The position numbers and the translations under genes were made by a program. Below are positions 19,107 to 26,875 of a stretch of DNA of 37,132 bases, one piece after another; the stretch's first letter is position 1, and the number at the start of each line of letters is the position of its first letter. The stretch is from the NCBI GenBank assembly GCA_021781455.1, contig JAJXWV010000023.1:1-37132 (forward strand), given 5' to 3'. Under the pieces are notes generated by a model. The model was not told the origin of the DNA. It worked only from the letters and a program-made list of their open reading frames with translations, and made no database searches. This stretch comes from Acidobacteriota bacterium. GTDB taxonomy: Bacteria; Acidobacteriota; Thermoanaerobaculia; Gp7-AA8.

Positions 19107-19520
19107 ATGATGCACACCCCCATCAACAGATGCACCGCGTTCCCCGGGTCAGCTCGACTGCTCGGCGGGATCGTGCTGTTCGCGTTCCTGGGTGTGTTCT
19201 TCGTGATGCCGCTCTGGGCGGCGTTCTCGATCTGCACGATGCCGTGCTGCCATCACGACGCTTCAGCAGCGATGCTCATGTCGGCCGATGCCATGGCGTG
19301 CGACAGCAGCGAATGCTTCGTGCGCGCCGACGACGTTAGGCCGACGACTGTCGCCTCCGTCGTGCCGGAAACACGCATCACCCTCGTCGTGCCCACGGTC
19401 GAAGCATCGGAAGTGATCACCACGCCTGTGGTCGCGGCGCGGTCGGCCTCCTTCACCCTCTGCCCGCAGCGTGGTGCCGGCGCACCCGTTCACGTCCTGA
19501 ACTCCACCTTCCGCATCTGA
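19107..19520 (+). CDS. Small Cys-rich exported/membrane protein with C-terminal NSTFRI motif
   Basis: Predicted 137 residues, first gene of the Cus-like cluster. A basic N-terminus and a hydrophobic helix (~18-42) precede a cysteine cluster (SICTMPCCHHD, Cys43, Cys47, Cys48). A Met/Asp segment with ACDSSECF follows, then a Val/Thr-rich middle, and the chain ends GAPVHVLNSTFRI. I do not recognise a named family. The protein encoded at 33376-33777 on the other strand has the same architecture and an almost identical C-terminus (PVHLINSVFRI), so they are paralogues. Location and the Cys/Met/His content suggest a periplasmic or membrane metal-binding or sensing role (inference). Loosely it recalls small leader proteins of copper operons such as CopL, but I cannot establish homology. 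GTG at 19104 is an alternative start. Confidence 0.75.
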   Translation: MMHTPINRCTAFPGSARLLGGIVLFAFLGVFFVMPLWAAFSICTMPCCHHDASAAMLMSADAMACDSSECFVRADDVRPTTVASVVPETRITLVVPTVEASEVITTPVVAARSASFTLCPQRGAGAPVHVLNSTFRI

Positions 19521-19590: not shown

Positions 19591-20979
19591 GTGTCCATCC
19601 GTATCCATCTTGCCATCGCTGCGTTGGCGTCGATCGTCATCCTGCCGGCGGCTGCTCAGACAACAGCAAGACCCATCGCTCGAGCGACGCTGCCCGATCG
19701 TCAGCTCGATGCGCTCGTTGCCGAGGCACTCGCGAACGCGCCCGAGATGACGTCCGCGCAAGCGAGCGTGGAAGCCGCGCGGCGGCGAATCGTTCCTGCG
19801 CGCACGCTCGCTGATCCGTTCCTCTCCGCGACCTACCAGAACGACGGCCGCGCGTTCTCACTCGGAAGCGCCGAGGGAAGCTTCCTCGGCTTGATGGCGA
19901 GCGAGGCGATCCCGTGGCCGGGCAAACTCCGGCTGGCCGGCGACATCGCTTCGAGCGAAGCGAAGGAAATCGAGCGCGGCACCCTCGGTCGCACGGAGTT
20001 GACGCTCGAAGCGCGAGTCCGCAACGCCTGGTACGACCTGGTGCTGGCGCACGCCATCGATCGGATCATCGAAGACCGTCGCGCGGCAGCCGCACAGATC
20101 GAAGCCTCGGTCCGCGAGCGGTACACCGCCGGGCTCGCCGTCCAGCAGGACGTCCTTCGAGCCCAGGTGGAGCTCGCACGCATCGAAGAGTTGAAGGCGA
20201 CGCAGGCGGCGACGATCGCAAGCCGCGCGGCAGAGCTGAACCGCCTCGTCGGCGCACCGCAAGACCGCGCCATCGACACGCCCAGCCGCTTACCGGAGGA
20301 GGCAGCCGTTCCCCCACTCGCGGATCTCATCGCTGCTTCAGCTGCGCGGAGTCCGGAACTGGCGGCGTCGGCGCAGGCGATCGACACAGGAAGAATCCGA
20401 GTCGATCTCGCGAAAAAGAACTTCCTTCCCGACTTCAGCGTGAATGCGGGATCGATGTACCGCGGCTCGTTCGCGATGGGTCCGATGTGGCAGGTGGGCG
20501 TCGGTGTGTCGCTGCCGATCTGGATCGACCGGCGCCAGCAGAACCAGCTTGCGGAAGCGCAGGCCGTCGTGCGCGGCCGGACTGCGGACAAGGAGACGGT
20601 GGCACTCGAGCTGGAGGTACGGACCCGTGAACGCGTCGCGCAGCTGGACGCGTCATCGCGCATCGCGGCGCTCTACCGCGACAAGGTTCTGCCGCTCGAC
20701 GACCTCTCACTCGAGTCGGCGCTGGCGAGCTATCAGGCTGGCAAGGTCCCGTTCATCACGGTACTCGATGCCCTGAACACGTTGTACAGCGACCGTGCGA
20801 TCTATGCGGGCCGGCTCGCCGAGAGCGCGAAGTGGCGCGTTGCGATCGACGAAGCCAGCCTGCAGCCGACCGCGATGAGCGGAGCTCCGTCGATGGGCAG
20901 CTCCGCCGCGGGCGGCGCCACCACCGCGTCTTCCACTGCAAAAGCGAACAACGGCTCCTCGATGAGCTCGATGAGGTGA
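19591..20979 (+). CDS. cusC: Outer-membrane factor of Cus/Czc-type efflux (TolC family)
   Basis: Predicted 462-residue outer-membrane channel for the tripartite metal exporter. The GTG at 19591 follows a clear AAAGGAGA site and gives a signal peptide (to AAAQ, ~residue 23). The two OEP repeats are visible: a first coiled region from DRQLDALVAEALANAPEM and a second from PPLADLIAASAARSPELAAS, with long amphipathic helices. GAPQDRAID and VPFITVLDALNTLYSD are characteristic of metal-type OMFs. The C-terminal ~35 residues form a Ser/Gly/Ala/Met-rich tail. The stop is five bases before the adaptor gene, so the two are co-transcribed. Symbol by analogy; metal specificity is not proven by this subunit. 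Confidence 0.9.
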   Translation: MSIRIHLAIAALASIVILPAAAQTTARPIARATLPDRQLDALVAEALANAPEMTSAQASVEAARRRIVPARTLADPFLSATYQNDGRAFSLGSAEGSFLGLMASEAIPWPGKLRLAGDIASSEAKEIERGTLGRTELTLEARVRNAWYDLVLAHAIDRIIEDRRAAAAQIEASVRERYTAGLAVQQDVLRAQVELARIEELKATQAATIASRAAELNRLVGAPQDRAIDTPSRLPEEAAVPPLADLIAASAARSPELAASAQAIDTGRIRVDLAKKNFLPDFSVNAGSMYRGSFAMGPMWQVGVGVSLPIWIDRRQQNQLAEAQAVVRGRTADKETVALELEVRTRERVAQLDASSRIAALYRDKVLPLDDLSLESALASYQAGKVPFITVLDALNTLYSDRAIYAGRLAESAKWRVAIDEASLQPTAMSGAPSMGSSAAGGATTASSTAKANNGSSMSSMR

Positions 20980-20984
20980 TCACG

Positions 20985-22367
20985 ATGAAAACGAAACTCC
21001 CCTGGATTCTCACAGCAATCTTCGCGATCGCGCTCGTCGTGGTTCTGATCGCGCGGCCGGCGGCGAAGCCCGCCCCGACCGCTCCGGCGGGTGAAAAGAA
21101 AGTCCTCTACTGGATCGACGCCATGAACCCGACTCACAAGTTCGACAAGCCCGGGAAGGCGCCCGACGGAATGGATCTGGTTCCCGTGTACGCGGAAGGT
21201 GGGAATCCCGCGGCGCCGGTCACCGCGGAGAAGAAGGTCCTCTACTGGGTCGACCCGATGCACCCGGCATACAAGTCGGACAAGCCAGGCATCGCTCCCG
21301 ACTGCGGCATGCAGCTCGTGCCGGTGTACGCAGACGGAAGCGAGCCCGCAGCGACGTCGACCGTCAGCGGCTACGCGAACGTCAAGCTAACCTCCGATCG
21401 CCAGCAACTCATCGGCGTCCAGACTGGCATGACCGAGATGCGCTCGTTGGGACGCTCGGTGCGCACCGTCGGCCGTGTGGCCGTCGACGAGAAGCGCCTG
21501 TACACCATCACGACGAAGTTCGACGGCTACATCGAAAAGCTCTACGTGAACGTCACCGGCCAGCAGATTCACAAAGGGCAGGCACTCTTCTCGGTCTACA
21601 GCCCCGATCTCCTCGCGACGCAGCAGGAATACCTCCTCGCCTTGCGCGCTGCGAAGGTGGCACCGTCGCTCCTGGCGGCGGCCCGGCAGCGCCTGTTGCT
21701 GTGGGACATCAAACCGGCTGAGATCCGTGAGCTCGAGCGAACCGGGGTGGCGCGGAAGTCCGTCACGATCTACTCGCCGGCGAATGGCTACGTTCTGAAC
21801 AAGGTTGCGGTCGAAGGCGCGCGCGTCACGGCCGGAGAACCGCTGTTCCAGATCGCAAACCTCGATCGCGTCTGGATTCAGGCCGACGTTTACGAGTCGG
21901 AGCTGCCGTTCATCCGGCTCGGTGCGCTGGCGACCACGACTCTGTCGTACATCCCGGGTCGCACATGGACGGGCCGGGTCACCTTCATCGCACCGACGGT
22001 CGATCCAGTGACCCGCACAGTGAAGGTGCGCAGCGAATTCGACAACCCTGATGGCGCACTCAAGCCGGACATGTTCGGCGACGTCGTCATCGAGCAGCCC
22101 GCCAGGACGGTCGTCGCCGTACCGGATTCCGCCGTTCTCCAGACCGGCACGCGGTCCATCGTATTCGTCGTCAAAGGCGATGGAACATTCGAGCCGCGGG
22201 AGGTCACTCTCGGAACCGATGCGGACCAGTTCTACGAGGTTCGCAGCGGTCTGACGGCCGGTGAAAAGGTCGTCACACAGGCCAACTTCCTCATCGACTC
22301 CGAGTCGCGCCTGAAAGCAGCGCTTGCGCAGATGAACGGACCTGGAGAGCACCAGCACGGCCAGTAG
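20985..22367 (+). CDS. cusB: Efflux periplasmic adaptor with two heavy-metal-binding domains (CusB-like)
   Basis: Predicted 460-residue membrane-fusion protein linking the RND pump to the outer-membrane channel. One N-terminal helix (~5-24) is followed by two tandem heavy-metal-binding (YHS-like HMBD) domains. The first is VLYWIDAMNPTHKFDKPGK...GMDLVPVY without Cys; the second is VLYWVDPMHPAYKSDKPG...PDCGMQLVPVY with the full Met/His/Cys set. The barrel-sandwich, lipoyl and beta-barrel parts follow (VGRVAVDEKRLYTITTKFDG, SPANGYVLNKVAVEGARV, ESELPFIRLG), ending in a His-containing tail GEHQHGQ. The ATG at 20985 is chosen; the frame is open upstream only within cusC. Probably transfers Cu(I)/Ag(I) to the pump. 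Confidence 0.92.
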   Translation: MKTKLPWILTAIFAIALVVVLIARPAAKPAPTAPAGEKKVLYWIDAMNPTHKFDKPGKAPDGMDLVPVYAEGGNPAAPVTAEKKVLYWVDPMHPAYKSDKPGIAPDCGMQLVPVYADGSEPAATSTVSGYANVKLTSDRQQLIGVQTGMTEMRSLGRSVRTVGRVAVDEKRLYTITTKFDGYIEKLYVNVTGQQIHKGQALFSVYSPDLLATQQEYLLALRAAKVAPSLLAAARQRLLLWDIKPAEIRELERTGVARKSVTIYSPANGYVLNKVAVEGARVTAGEPLFQIANLDRVWIQADVYESELPFIRLGALATTTLSYIPGRTWTGRVTFIAPTVDPVTRTVKVRSEFDNPDGALKPDMFGDVVIEQPARTVVAVPDSAVLQTGTRSIVFVVKGDGTFEPREVTLGTDADQFYEVRSGLTAGEKVVTQANFLIDSESRLKAALAQMNGPGEHQHGQ

Positions 22368-22391: not shown

Positions 22392-25300
22392 ATGATTGAA
22401 AAACTCATCCGCATCTGCGCCACCAACAAGTTCATGACGCTCACGATCATGGCGGCGCTGGTGTTCGCCGGCCTCTGGTCGATGAACCGCATCGCCGTCG
22501 ACGCGCTGCCTGACCTCTCCGACACGCAGGTCATCATCTATTCGAAGTGGGACCGCAGCCCCGACATCATCGAGGATCAGGTCACCTATCCGATCGTCAC
22601 GTCTCTGCTCGGCGCCCCGAGGGTCAAGAGCATCCGCGGGTTTTCCGATTTCGGCTATTCGTATGTCTACGTGATCTTCGATGAGGGAACCGATCTGTAT
22701 TGGGCGCGCAGCCGCGTGCTCGAGTACCTCTCGAAAGTTCAAGGCTCCCTTCCGCAGGGGGTGAAGACGGAGCTCGGACCCGACGCCACGGGAGTCGGAT
22801 GGGTTTTCCAATACGCACTCGTCGATAAGAGCGGCAGACATTCGCTCGCCGATCTCCGCTCCCTTCAGGACTGGACGATCCGCTACCAGCTGCAGTCCGT
22901 GCCGGGGGTCGCGGAGGTCGCTTCGCTGGGCGGGTTCGTGCGCCAGTACCAGATCACCGTCGATCCGAACAAGCTCGCGGCGTATCACATCCCGCTGATG
23001 GATGTGACGAATGCGGTGCGGGCCTCGAACAACGAGATCGGCGCGCGTCTCGTCGAGTGGAGCGGAGCGGAGTACATGGTTCGCGCCCGCGGCTACATCA
23101 GGAACATCGCCGATCTCGAGGACATTGTGGTGAAGACCGACGAGCGAGGCACGCCGGTGCTCCTGCGGGACGTCGCAAACGTGGAGCTCGGGCCGGAGAT
23201 GCGGCGCGGCATCGCCGAGCTGAACGGGGAGGGCGAGACCGCGGCCGGCATCGTCATCATGCGGCAGAGCGAGAACGCGCTCGACGTGATCAACCGCGTG
23301 AAGGCTCGCCTCGCTGAAATCCAGAAGACCCTGCCTGAGGGCGTGAAAATCGTCACCACCTACGATCGCTCGGAGCTGATCGAGCGCTCCATCCACACGC
23401 TCAAGCACGAGCTGCTCCTGGAGATGATCATCGTCTCGCTGATCATCCTCATCTTCCTCTGGCACATCCCGAGCGCGATCATTCCGATCTTCACGCTTCC
23501 GGCTGCAATCATCATTTCGTTCATCCCGATGAAGATCCTCGGGATCAACGCCAACATCATGTCGTTAGGCGGGATCGCCATTGCCATTGGTGCGCTCGTC
23601 GATGCCGCAGTCGTGGTCGTCGAGAATGCTCACAAGAAGCTCGAGGTATGGCAGGCGGAGGGAGGAAAGGGCGATTACAAGGAAGTCCTGATCAAGGCCA
23701 TTCAGGAAGTAGGCCGGCCGAGCTTCTTCTCTCTGATGGTCATCGCCCTCTCGTTCATGCCCATCTTCACGCTCGAAGCGCAGGAAGGGCGCCTCTTCAA
23801 GCCGCTGGCGTTCACGAAGAACTTCGCCATGGCCATCGCGGCGATCCTCGCGGTGACGCTCGATCCCGCCATCCGGCTGCTCTTCACGCGCATGAAGGAG
23901 TACCGCTTTCAGCGCCGCGAAGGTGAACTGCGAGAGGACGGGACGGTCGTCACGGAGCGCAAGGGAGCGCTGGCTTCGATTGGACGCACCGTCGTCCGTG
24001 GTGCGGAGCGCGTCACGAACGCCGTCCTCGTCGGGAAGATGTACCCCGAAGAGAAGCACCCGATCTCGAAGATCCTCTTCAAGCTCTACACGCGGCCGGC
24101 GAAATTCGTGCTCAGGCATCCACGCCTGGTGATCGGCACGGCGCTTCTCATCGTGCTCGTCACGATTCCCGTCTACGAGAAGCTCGGCCACGAGTTCATG
24201 CCGCCACTGAACGAGGGTTCGATCCTCTACATGCCCACGACCCTGCCCGGAATCTCGGTGGCGCAGGCCGAGGCGCTTCTACAGAGGCAGGACCAGCTCC
24301 TGAAAGAGTTTCCCGAAGTGGAGCGCGTCTTCGGCAAAGCGGGACGCGCAGAGACGTCTACGGATCCGGCGCCGTTCTCGATGATGGAAACCGTCGTCGT
24401 CCTCAAGCCGACTTCGGAGTGGCGTACCAAAACGCGCTGGTATTCGAACTGGCCCGACTTCATCAAGCCTCTGTTCCGGCCGCTCTGGCCGGAGACCATC
24501 TCGTGGGACGAGCTCGTCAACGAGATGAATGCGAGACTCACGCTGCCCGGCCAGACGAACGCGTGGACGATGCCGATCAAGAACCGCATCGACATGCTCA
24601 CGACCGGGATTCGGACGCCGGTTGGAATCAAGATCTTCGGCACAGACCTCAACGAAATCCAAAGGATCGGCCAGCACCTCGAAGGCATTCTGCAAAAGGT
24701 TCCCGGAACGCGAAGCGTGTACGGGGAGCGCGTTGCGGATGGTTACTTCGTCGATTTCGATCTGAATCGCGAGGCCATCGCCCGCTATGGCCTTCGCATC
24801 GGGGACGTGCAGGACGTGATCATGACGGCCATCGGCGGAGAGGATGTGTCGACGACCGTCGAAGGACGCGAGCGTTATCCGATCAACATCCGCTATCCGC
24901 GCGAAATGCGCGATGACGTGGACAAGCTGGCCCGTACGCTCGTCCCCATTCCCAATGGCTCCGGCGCGATGGGTGGCGGCGGACAGGTGCCCCTCGGCCA
25001 GCTCGCCACGGTCAAGCTCGTCAAGGGTCCGTCGATGATCCGCGACGAGGACGGCCGGCTCTCGGGCTACGTCTACGTGGATGTCGATACGGAGAAACGC
25101 GACATCGGCGGCTACGTGGAAGAGGCGAAGAAAGCGGTCGATGCGGAGCTGAAGCTCAAGCCCGGCTACCTGCTCGCCTGGAGCGGCCAGTACGAGGCGA
25201 TGACGCGGGTGAAGGAGAAGATGAAAGTCGTCCTTCCTCTCACGCTCTTCGTCGTCTTCTTCCTCATCTACATGAATACGAAGTCGTTCCCGAAGACGGC

Positions 25301-26231
25301 GATCGTGCTCATGGCCGTGCCGTTCTCGGCGGTTGGCGCGATCTGGCTGCTCTACGCCCTCGGCTACAACATGTCCATCGGCGTTTGGGTGGGGCTCATT
25401 GCCCTGTTAGGGCTCGACGCAGAGACGGGCATCTTCATGCTGCTCTACCTCGATCTTGCTCACGACGAACGTGTCGCCGCCGGAACGCTGAACACGCGCG
25501 AGGACCTGAACGAAGCGATTCTGCACGGCGCCGTACAACGCGTGCGCCCGAAGGTCATGACGGTCGCCTGCGCGTTCTTCGGCCTGGTGCCGATCATGTG
25601 GTCGACGGGGGCGGGCGCGGACGTCATGAAGCGTATCGCCGCGCCGATGATCGGCGGTCTCTTCACCTCGTTCCTCATGGAATTGCTCGTTTACCCTGCA
25701 ATCTACCTTCTCTGGCGCGAGCGAGATCTACGGCATCCGGAACTGGCGGGCGCCGGGCAGCGCAGGCGTCACTGGTGGCAGCGGCCAGCGGTCGTGAGCG
25801 GCCTTACGGGAGTTCTGGTGGCTCTAGCCATCGCCGGCTACATGCTCTTCCCTCGCGCTGAGGCGCGACCGCTGTTCCCACGTTACGAATCCGTGCGCCA
25901 GTCACTGCTGACCGGTTCTCTCGACGGTGCGAAGTCGAGCGCCGCCGCGCTCGTGACTGACGCTCGAGCCTCGAAGCAGGCTCAGATCGAGTCCGGAGCC
26001 GACGCGCTTGCGAAGAGCAACGACCTGGAATCCGCACGCCAGGCGTTCGCCCGTCTCTCGGACGCGATGATCGCGTACCGCAAGACCGCCACCGAATCGC
26101 CGAAGCCGGAGGTCGTGTACTGCTCGATGGCGAAGCACTGGTGGCTGCAGCCGAAGGGTGACGTCAACAACCCGTATTACTCCGACCCCGCCATGCGCAC
26201 GTGTGGCGAGGTCAAGGAAACCGCTGACTGA
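22392..26231 (+). CDS. cusA: Heavy-metal RND efflux pump (CusA-like) with fused C-terminal metal-binding-type domain
   Basis: Predicted 1279 residues; HME-RND pumps are usually ~1030-1070. The pump body is complete: TM1 then DALPDLSDTQVIIY, the TM4 acidic site GALVDAAVVVVENAHKKLE for proton relay, FGKAGRAETSTDPAPFSMMET (Met664/665), NRIDMLTTGI (Met735), and AAPMIGGLFTSFLMELLVYP in the last helix. An ~60-residue insertion follows TM6. Beyond ~residue 1120 come an Arg-rich linker, an extra membrane helix (GLTGVLVALAIAGYMLFP) and a ~125-residue domain ending EVVYCSMAKHWWLQPKGD, NNPYYSDPAMRTCGEV. This last domain is DUF3347-like and a paralogue of the separate protein at 26372. It probably projects into the periplasm and handles metal. 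The full Met triad of CusA needs an alignment, so Cu/Ag over Zn/Co/Cd is likely but unproven. Confidence 0.93.
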   Translation: MIEKLIRICATNKFMTLTIMAALVFAGLWSMNRIAVDALPDLSDTQVIIYSKWDRSPDIIEDQVTYPIVTSLLGAPRVKSIRGFSDFGYSYVYVIFDEGTDLYWARSRVLEYLSKVQGSLPQGVKTELGPDATGVGWVFQYALVDKSGRHSLADLRSLQDWTIRYQLQSVPGVAEVASLGGFVRQYQITVDPNKLAAYHIPLMDVTNAVRASNNEIGARLVEWSGAEYMVRARGYIRNIADLEDIVVKTDERGTPVLLRDVANVELGPEMRRGIAELNGEGETAAGIVIMRQSENALDVINRVKARLAEIQKTLPEGVKIVTTYDRSELIERSIHTLKHELLLEMIIVSLIILIFLWHIPSAIIPIFTLPAAIIISFIPMKILGINANIMSLGGIAIAIGALVDAAVVVVENAHKKLEVWQAEGGKGDYKEVLIKAIQEVGRPSFFSLMVIALSFMPIFTLEAQEGRLFKPLAFTKNFAMAIAAILAVTLDPAIRLLFTRMKEYRFQRREGELREDGTVVTERKGALASIGRTVVRGAERVTNAVLVGKMYPEEKHPISKILFKLYTRPAKFVLRHPRLVIGTALLIVLVTIPVYEKLGHEFMPPLNEGSILYMPTTLPGISVAQAEALLQRQDQLLKEFPEVERVFGKAGRAETSTDPAPFSMMETVVVLKPTSEWRTKTRWYSNWPDFIKPLFRPLWPETISWDELVNEMNARLTLPGQTNAWTMPIKNRIDMLTTGIRTPVGIKIFGTDLNEIQRIGQHLEGILQKVPGTRSVYGERVADGYFVDFDLNREAIARYGLRIGDVQDVIMTAIGGEDVSTTVEGRERYPINIRYPREMRDDVDKLARTLVPIPNGSGAMGGGGQVPLGQLATVKLVKGPSMIRDEDGRLSGYVYVDVDTEKRDIGGYVEEAKKAVDAELKLKPGYLLAWSGQYEAMTRVKEKMKVVLPLTLFVVFFLIYMNTKSFPKTAIVLMAVPFSAVGAIWLLYALGYNMSIGVWVGLIALLGLDAETGIFMLLYLDLAHDERVAAGTLNTREDLNEAILHGAVQRVRPKVMTVACAFFGLVPIMWSTGAGADVMKRIAAPMIGGLFTSFLMELLVYPAIYLLWRERDLRHPELAGAGQRRRHWWQRPAVVSGLTGVLVALAIAGYMLFPRAEARPLFPRYESVRQSLLTGSLDGAKSSAAALVTDARASKQAQIESGADALAKSNDLESARQAFARLSDAMIAYRKTATESPKPEVVYCSMAKHWWLQPKGDVNNPYYSDPAMRTCGEVKETAD

Positions 26232-26245
26232 CACGAGGTGAGTCG

Positions 26246-26320
26246 ATGTTCCACCACGGGGGATGGTTCTGGATCGGAGTCATGGTGGTCATGATGTTTT
26301 TCATGATGTTGTCGTTGTAA
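26246..26320 (+). CDS. 24-residue Met-rich membrane peptide
   Basis: This short frame has an ATG at 26246, a good GAGGTGAG site at 26235-26242 and a TAA at 26318. It encodes an N-terminal MFHHGGWFWIG followed by a hydrophobic run with seven methionines (VMVVMMFFMMLSL at the end), enough for one membrane helix with two His at the periplasmic or cytosolic edge. It lies between the RND pump and the DUF3347-like gene in the same direction. Size, position and composition suggest a small pump-associated subunit, comparable in kind to AcrZ or KdpF (inference). I know no named family for it. Confidence 0.6.
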   Translation: MFHHGGWFWIGVMVVMMFFMMLSL

Positions 26321-26371
26321 CCAACGCTCAGTGCAAATCGCAGATCAACAGAAGAAGGAGAGAACATTCCT

Positions 26372-26875
26372 ATGAAACGCCTTACGGTGCTCTGCGCGAC
26401 GGCGATCGCGCTCGTTCTTCCGCTTGCGGCATACGCCCAGCACGATCACGGCGGCATGAACCACGGCAACATGAATCACGGCAGCATGAACATGGCGATG
26501 GGCAGCGGCGAGCAGAAGGATCACATCTTCATCAGCTATGAGCAGGCCAGGCAGGCCGTGATCAATCAGTCGCTGCCTGACATCAAGACGGCGGCGAGAC
26601 ACGTCGGCCTCTCCGCAAAGGACGCGAATGAGCCGAAGATCGAAGAGCAGGCCGCAAATCTCGAGAAAGCTGCCGACATCAAGGCGGCCCGGGCTGCATT
26701 CGCCGCTCTGTCGGACGAAGTCATCAAATACCGCGACGCAAAGTGCTGCGGCGACAAACCGGTCGTCGTCTATTGCTCGATGGAGAAGAAGTCATGGCTC
26801 CAGCCGAAGGGCGACATCGGCAATCCGTATCTCGACGCCGCGATGCGTAAGTGCGGCACTGTGAAGGAAAACTAA
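26372..26875 (+). CDS. His/Met-rich periplasmic DUF3347-like protein
   Basis: Predicted 167 residues with a signal peptide (to AAYAQ, ~residue 23). A metal-binding-looking segment HDHGGMNHGNMNHGSMNM comes next, then a four-helix-like domain (FISYEQARQAVINQSLPD, EKAADIKAARAAFAALSDEV). The chain ends CCGDKPVVVYCSMEKKSWLQPKGDIGNPYLDAAMRKCG. The YCSM...WLQ...NPY...M..CG pattern matches DUF3347-type domains found in CusB-like proteins and copper operons (family knowledge). The same pattern closes the RND pump upstream. Likely a periplasmic copper/silver chaperone or sponge feeding the exporter. The ribosome site is AAGAAGGAGAG before ATG 26372. Confidence 0.85.
   Translation: MKRLTVLCATAIALVLPLAAYAQHDHGGMNHGNMNHGSMNMAMGSGEQKDHIFISYEQARQAVINQSLPDIKTAARHVGLSAKDANEPKIEEQAANLEKAADIKAARAAFAALSDEVIKYRDAKCCGDKPVVVYCSMEKKSWLQPKGDIGNPYLDAAMRKCGTVKEN

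Follow-up and report, generated by a model that had tools for sequence, protein, structure and literature searches.

A CusA-type efflux pump of Acidobacteriota with a thirteenth membrane helix and a DUF3347-type domain, a candidate tethered metal donor

The DNA analyzed here (the window) is a 37,132-nucleotide stretch of an Acidobacteriota genome that encodes a CusA-type RND pump whose chain continues beyond its usual end into an added, thirteenth membrane helix and then a DUF3347-type domain. This fusion is genuine and conserved across genera rather than an artifact. We propose, with a probability of about 0.6, that the added domain works like CusF, i.e. as a Cu(I)/Ag(I) donor tethered to the pump, its metal binding being predicted from conserved residues. 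The features of the cluster are listed in Table 1; the C-termini of the pump and of the secreted protein downstream of it are exactly those given in a first-pass annotation of this DNA.

Table 1. Features of the efflux cluster, in window coordinates.
Feature	Position	Strand	Basis or remark
Small membrane or secreted protein with Cys/His/Met-rich stretch SICTMPCCHHDASAAMLMSADAMACDSSEC	19134..19520	+	Opens the cluster; start approximate; no Pfam match
CusC-like outer-membrane factor (TolC family)	19591..20979	+	PF02321, 2.2e-35
CusB-like periplasmic adaptor with two HMBD-type motifs near the N-terminus	20982..22367	+	PF16576, 4.9e-81; HMBD PF19335, 9.6e-20
CusA-type RND pump with thirteenth TM helix and DUF3347-type domain, 1279 aa	22392..26231	+	TIGR00914; fusion conserved
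Charged linker and thirteenth TM helix, residues ~1108-1152	25713..25847	+	Hydropathy and linker charge in seven fused pumps
Fused DUF3347-type domain; invariant C1244, M1246, W1251, M1268, C1271	25848..26228	+	23-copy alignment; model pLDDT 92.4
Secreted DUF3347-type protein, 167 aa: signal peptide, His/Met-rich arm, domain	26372..26875	+	AYA|Q cleavage site; 47% identity to fused domain

The pump scores 1147 bits against TIGR00914, the CusA/CzcA heavy-metal RND family model (cut-off 701), and residues 12-1107 form its ACR_tran (Pfam) match (727 bits). Its closest solved relative is CusA of the E. coli CusCFBA system, a member of the same family with the same set of outer-membrane factor and adaptor, rather than ZneA. 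In alignment with CusA, the methionine-bearing motifs YMPxTLPG, APxxMxET and NRIDMLxTG are conserved in the pump from residues 608, 660 and 731, and we take these motifs to hold the three cleft methionines of CusA. It is through three methionines of the cleft that CusA binds Ag/Cu (PMC6235853). The pump gene shares its operon with the genes for the adaptor (6.6e-70 and 235.6 bits against the NF007303 CusB model, below the cut-off of 390) and the outer-membrane factor, as Cu/Ag-type RND systems do. Because its motifs are CusA-type, the substrate of the pump is probably Cu(I)/Ag(I), and the motifs point to an operon for Cu(I)/Ag(I) efflux composed of an outer-membrane factor, CusB and CusA. The small protein that opens the cluster belongs to no known family and has relatives in the same position in loci L034, L038, L158 and L161, unfused operons included; in L034 and L038, where they precede the gene for the outer-membrane factor, they are 38% and 36% identical to it.

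E. coli CusA ends after helix 12 and works with a separate chaperone, CusF, whereas the pump in the window continues past ACR_tran for about 172 residues, somewhat less than the 200 that the first-pass annotation had estimated for this extension. The tail consists of a charged linker, a hydrophobic helix at residues ~1134-1152 (mean hydropathy 2.09) and a domain that runs from residue ~1161 to the end, so that the annotated extra helix is indeed there. The DUF3347 match lies at residues 1164-1234 of the pump, and matches in the window reach 20.3-24.7 bits (24.7 for the isolated fused domain), below the Pfam gathering cut-off of 25.5; the model matches 20 of the 23 aligned relatives (best 1.6e-15), in line with the earlier description of the tail domain as DUF3347-like. 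All seven fused pumps (7/7) have the thirteenth helix, with mean hydropathies of 1.9-2.7, 3-6 Lys/Arg in the preceding linker and 7-8 residues between helix and domain. In RND pumps, both ends of the chain are cytoplasmic. Since one more helix follows the twelve, the added domain is predicted to be periplasmic, not cytoplasmic, the placement that the first-pass annotation had raised against its own proposal. The count of twelve helices per monomer is that of CusA (PMC6235853).

The secreted protein is a paralog of the fused domain, as had been proposed: the two share 47% identity over 117 aa (E 7e-28), and their alignment scores 255, against 29.9 ± 5.1 (maximum 64) in 500 shuffles. In the secreted copy, a typical signal peptide with its cleavage site after AYA is followed by an arm in which residues 23-52 include 5 His and 5 Met. 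The fused copies are likewise hydrophobic at the corresponding position ahead of the domain, but have no conserved A-x-A site. The window thus holds the pair that the first-pass annotation described, one copy predicted to be tethered by the thirteenth helix and one secreted with a His/Met-rich arm.

An AlphaFold2 model of the domain, built from the 23 aligned copies, has a pLDDT of 92.4 and a pTM of 0.86. It comprises four helices (H9-21, H25-41, H45-55 and H60-80) followed by a small C-terminal unit, in which two strands, a short helix and one final strand succeed each other. Eleven columns are invariant over the 23 fused, secreted and CusB-borne copies, and those on the C-terminal unit are C92, M94, W99, Q101, N108, Y110, M116, C119 and G120 (numbered along the aligned segment, in which position 1 is pump residue 1153). 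Candidate metal ligands among them are, in pump numbering, C1244, M1246, W1251, M1268 and C1271. In CusF, Cu(I) is bound by one His and two Met, with a Trp as the cap (PMC6235853). By analogy, the Cys, Met and Trp set of the domain would resemble Cu(I) sites.

A Foldseek search with the domain model returned nothing below E 0.5, and a fold search returned generic helical bundles only (Z below 9), a comparison that covers the helices and hardly tests the C-terminal unit. We found no solved structure related to the domain by sequence. A model of the whole pump (residues 80-1279, nine sequences) was too poor to place the domain (pLDDT 52.9, pTM 0.37). We also considered whether the C-terminal unit is homologous to the HMBD metal-binding motif of CusB, with which it shares a C-x-M...C-G pattern; an hhalign probability of 4% gave this no support.

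A search for RND pumps with C-terminal DUF3347, as the first-pass annotation had suggested, found the fusion in six of the 149 genomes of the class. The carriers are a few soil and groundwater Acidobacteriota: G000, G004, G011, G013 and G017 belong to the family of the window, and G116 to another family. Five of the six are represented by loci L034, L036, L037, L038 and L040, and a second contig of G013 starts within a fused tail. A soluble DUF3347 copy usually lies downstream of the fused pump. For the pump gene of the window, the nearest relatives that carry a name are in Acidobacteria and Thermoanaerobaculia assemblies. A seventh fusion (L039, CAADGG010000015.1) comes from an assembly that bears the name 'uncultured proteobacterium PRO3' and is placed outside Acidobacteriota; the contig that carries it has 9.9 kb. 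The fused operon of L039 is very close to that of L037, and the fusion is absent from all 59 of the nearest relatives of the PRO3 genome that were examined; L039 therefore reflects either transfer or a mis-binned contig.

No further fusions appeared in a sample of 396 Acidobacteriota genomes, in 282 genomes of the phylum of G498 (the PRO3 contig excepted) or, at a stricter cut-off, in 195 genomes of the phylum of G499. Among 72,556 plasmids, through which alone Bacteroidota were covered, there were 8 matches, and the two loci examined held one solo DUF3347 gene and one CusB fusion. Apparent further pump fusions in G074 (a long frame of 1719 aa), G606, G597, G736, G683, G636, G581 and G647 were rejected, as the domain proved to be in a different frame, on CusB or in a separate gene.

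Phylogenetic analysis of 65 domains united the eight fused ones in a single clade (97/93) that lies in a group (100/100) with most of the neighboring soluble copies, that of the window included. The deeper order within this group is moderately supported (89/74), which makes local tandem duplication followed by one fusion the simplest reading of the tree rather than a proven history. The neighboring soluble genes of L037 and L039 belong to a different DUF3347 branch, so their recruitment was separate. Among the pumps, that of G014, which is unfused, groups within the fused clade of the pump tree (100/100), next to those of the window and L034 (~85-87% identity). This position points to a later loss of the DUF3347 domain; the domain is thus dispensable in G014, which weighs against the donor model. 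Here cusA is followed instead by the gene for a secreted, Met-rich protein of ~140 aa, and such a protein is found after cusA in both G014 (L157:5871-6305 (-)) and G013 (L169:3386-3811 (-)); that of G014 belongs to no Pfam family. The genome of the window has a third DUF3347-like stretch (G000:C45:63612-63788) that is interrupted by two stop codons and resembles a degenerate copy.

Free-standing and CusB-borne forms of DUF3347, both mentioned in the first-pass annotation, were seen among the loci examined. The domain is encoded by a separate gene directly after cusA in L041, L043 and L086, lies at the C-terminus of CusB in L044-L046 and L120, and stands ahead of the CusB part in L122, L125, L165, L166 and L169, some of which could represent a separate upstream gene in the same frame. 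Secreted stand-alone proteins are common, sometimes with several per genome. Because DUF3347 is found after cusA and on either end of CusB, it has repeatedly joined the same Cu/Ag efflux machine. We also observed CusB-type adaptors with two tandem DUF3347 domains (L084, L121 and L098) and, in G004, a TonB-dependent receptor of 830 aa (L083:4206-6698 (-)) with a weak DUF3347-like stretch near its N-terminus (~32-132) that was matched by BLAST and a custom profile and by no Pfam model.

Some close relatives have CusF, and others DUF3347, in the position after cusA. The unfused pumps of G002 and G009 are ~75% identical to that of the window, and the next gene in both encodes a CusF_Ec protein above the Pfam cut-off. 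We regard this exchange as the strongest evidence that the domain does the job of CusF. By sequence and by predicted fold, the domain is not itself a CusF: neither the pump tail nor the soluble copy matched CusF (PF11604) at E 0.1 in searches that detected the true CusF proteins of the neighbors, and the helical domain predicted here is unlike the small beta-barrel (OB-like) fold of CusF. The possibility that DUF3347 has replaced CusF genome-wide was rejected, as CusF_Ec-type matches are present in 9 of the 12 genomes checked. The genome of the window is one of these; it encodes a CusF_Ec-type lipoprotein elsewhere, and DUF3347 is therefore not its sole candidate chaperone.

We envisage the following course of events. 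cusA would have been fused in frame to the neighboring gene for a secreted DUF3347-type protein, the signal peptide of which, when the reading frames joined, probably became the thirteenth, uncleaved membrane helix. On each subunit of the pump trimer, the domain would then project into the periplasm on a tether of seven or eight residues, bind Cu(I)/Ag(I) via its Cys/Met/Trp motif and pass the ion to CusA or CusB, while tethering would keep the local metal concentration high close to the pump. Metal elsewhere in the periplasm would be gathered by the secreted paralog with its His/Met-rich arm. Both the transfer of metal to the pump and the exact position of the domain, which the first-pass annotation put next to the entry cleft, are inferred. 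The metal-donor role put forward in the first-pass annotation gains support from the conservation of the fusion across genera and from CusF in the same position in two close relatives; its metal-binding part is a prediction from sequence. More tentatively, and at slightly less than even odds, DUF3347 may be an unrecognized helical-bundle Cu(I)/Ag(I) chaperone, CusF-like in action and unrelated to CusF, which in its pump-built form would give three tethered donors per CusA trimer.

The main rival to the donor model is a disulfide, structural or redox-active, between the two invariant cysteines, which would make the domain a thiol sensor, a reductant or a disulfide-stabilized docking module. The periplasm is oxidizing, and the NCBIfam model NF047615, which describes the Leptospira proteins LIC13259 and LIC11441, matches all 23 copies (23/23), although the window proteins reach 36-42 bits, far below its curated cut-off of 100. 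Cys 108 and Cys 133 of LIC13259, 25 residues apart, are predicted to form an internal disulfide and take part in thiol-disulfide exchange with a cysteine of complement C8-gamma (PMC13344006), and this conserved pair probably corresponds to C1244/C1271, with a spacing of 27. If so, these cysteines are spatial neighbors, as would fit a metal site and a disulfide alike. However, a disulfide leaves the equally invariant two Met and Trp unexplained, as it does the steady association with Cu/Ag pumps and CusB and the presence of a CusF gene in the same position in relatives. We therefore consider this explanation unlikely.

Alternatively, the domain might be an assembly or gating module that docks CusB or a neighboring subunit to the pump, with metal acting at most as a signal. 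A bridge would be expected to occur, as this domain does, on the adaptor or on the pump depending on the lineage, and in E. coli metal transfer from CusF also activates CusB (PMC6235853). Stand-alone secreted copies, common and at times several per genome, nevertheless suit a carrier better, and docking seems to us less probable still than a disulfide. Least probable of all is that the thirteenth helix is still cleaved as a signal peptide, in which case the fusion would merely couple expression and the domain would be released. The helix does stand where the soluble protein has its signal peptide, and the window sequence has one AEA site after it, but the other six fused pumps have not retained it, whereas most soluble copies keep an A-x-A site.

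If the donor model is correct, a parallel is the SilB adaptor of Cupriavidus metallidurans, which carries a C-terminal CusF-type chaperone domain (PMC4446572). In both cases one component of a Cu/Ag RND efflux system would have a chaperone-type domain attached to it, although that of SilB sits on the adaptor, not the pump, and has a CusF-type beta-barrel fold, not that of a helical bundle. The same domain as in the pump is present in DUF3347 (PF11827) proteins and CusB-DUF3347 fusions, which are associated with CusA-type operons. A literature search, which reached few subscription papers, found no report of DUF3347 or any chaperone domain on a pump, nor a description of this architecture as a standard CusA variant, the objection that the first-pass annotation had allowed for. 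DUF3347 is hardly mentioned in that literature and nowhere together with RND. What appears to be new is thus a chaperone-like domain on the pump itself, as opposed to the known CusF-type domain on an adaptor. Whether periplasmic copper reaches CusA via CusB or straight from the chaperone is still under study, and a natural pump with an attached putative donor offers a simple test system in which donor and pump are inseparable.

The donor model, if true, would also provide a first function for DUF3347 and a link to a Leptospira surface protein studied for another role. LIC13259, a lipoprotein of the cell surface that reportedly binds complement C8, is a remote relative of the DUF3347 proteins in copper operons, and the 2026 paper on it makes no mention of DUF3347, copper or metal. 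LIC13259 may descend from a periplasmic metal-handling family.
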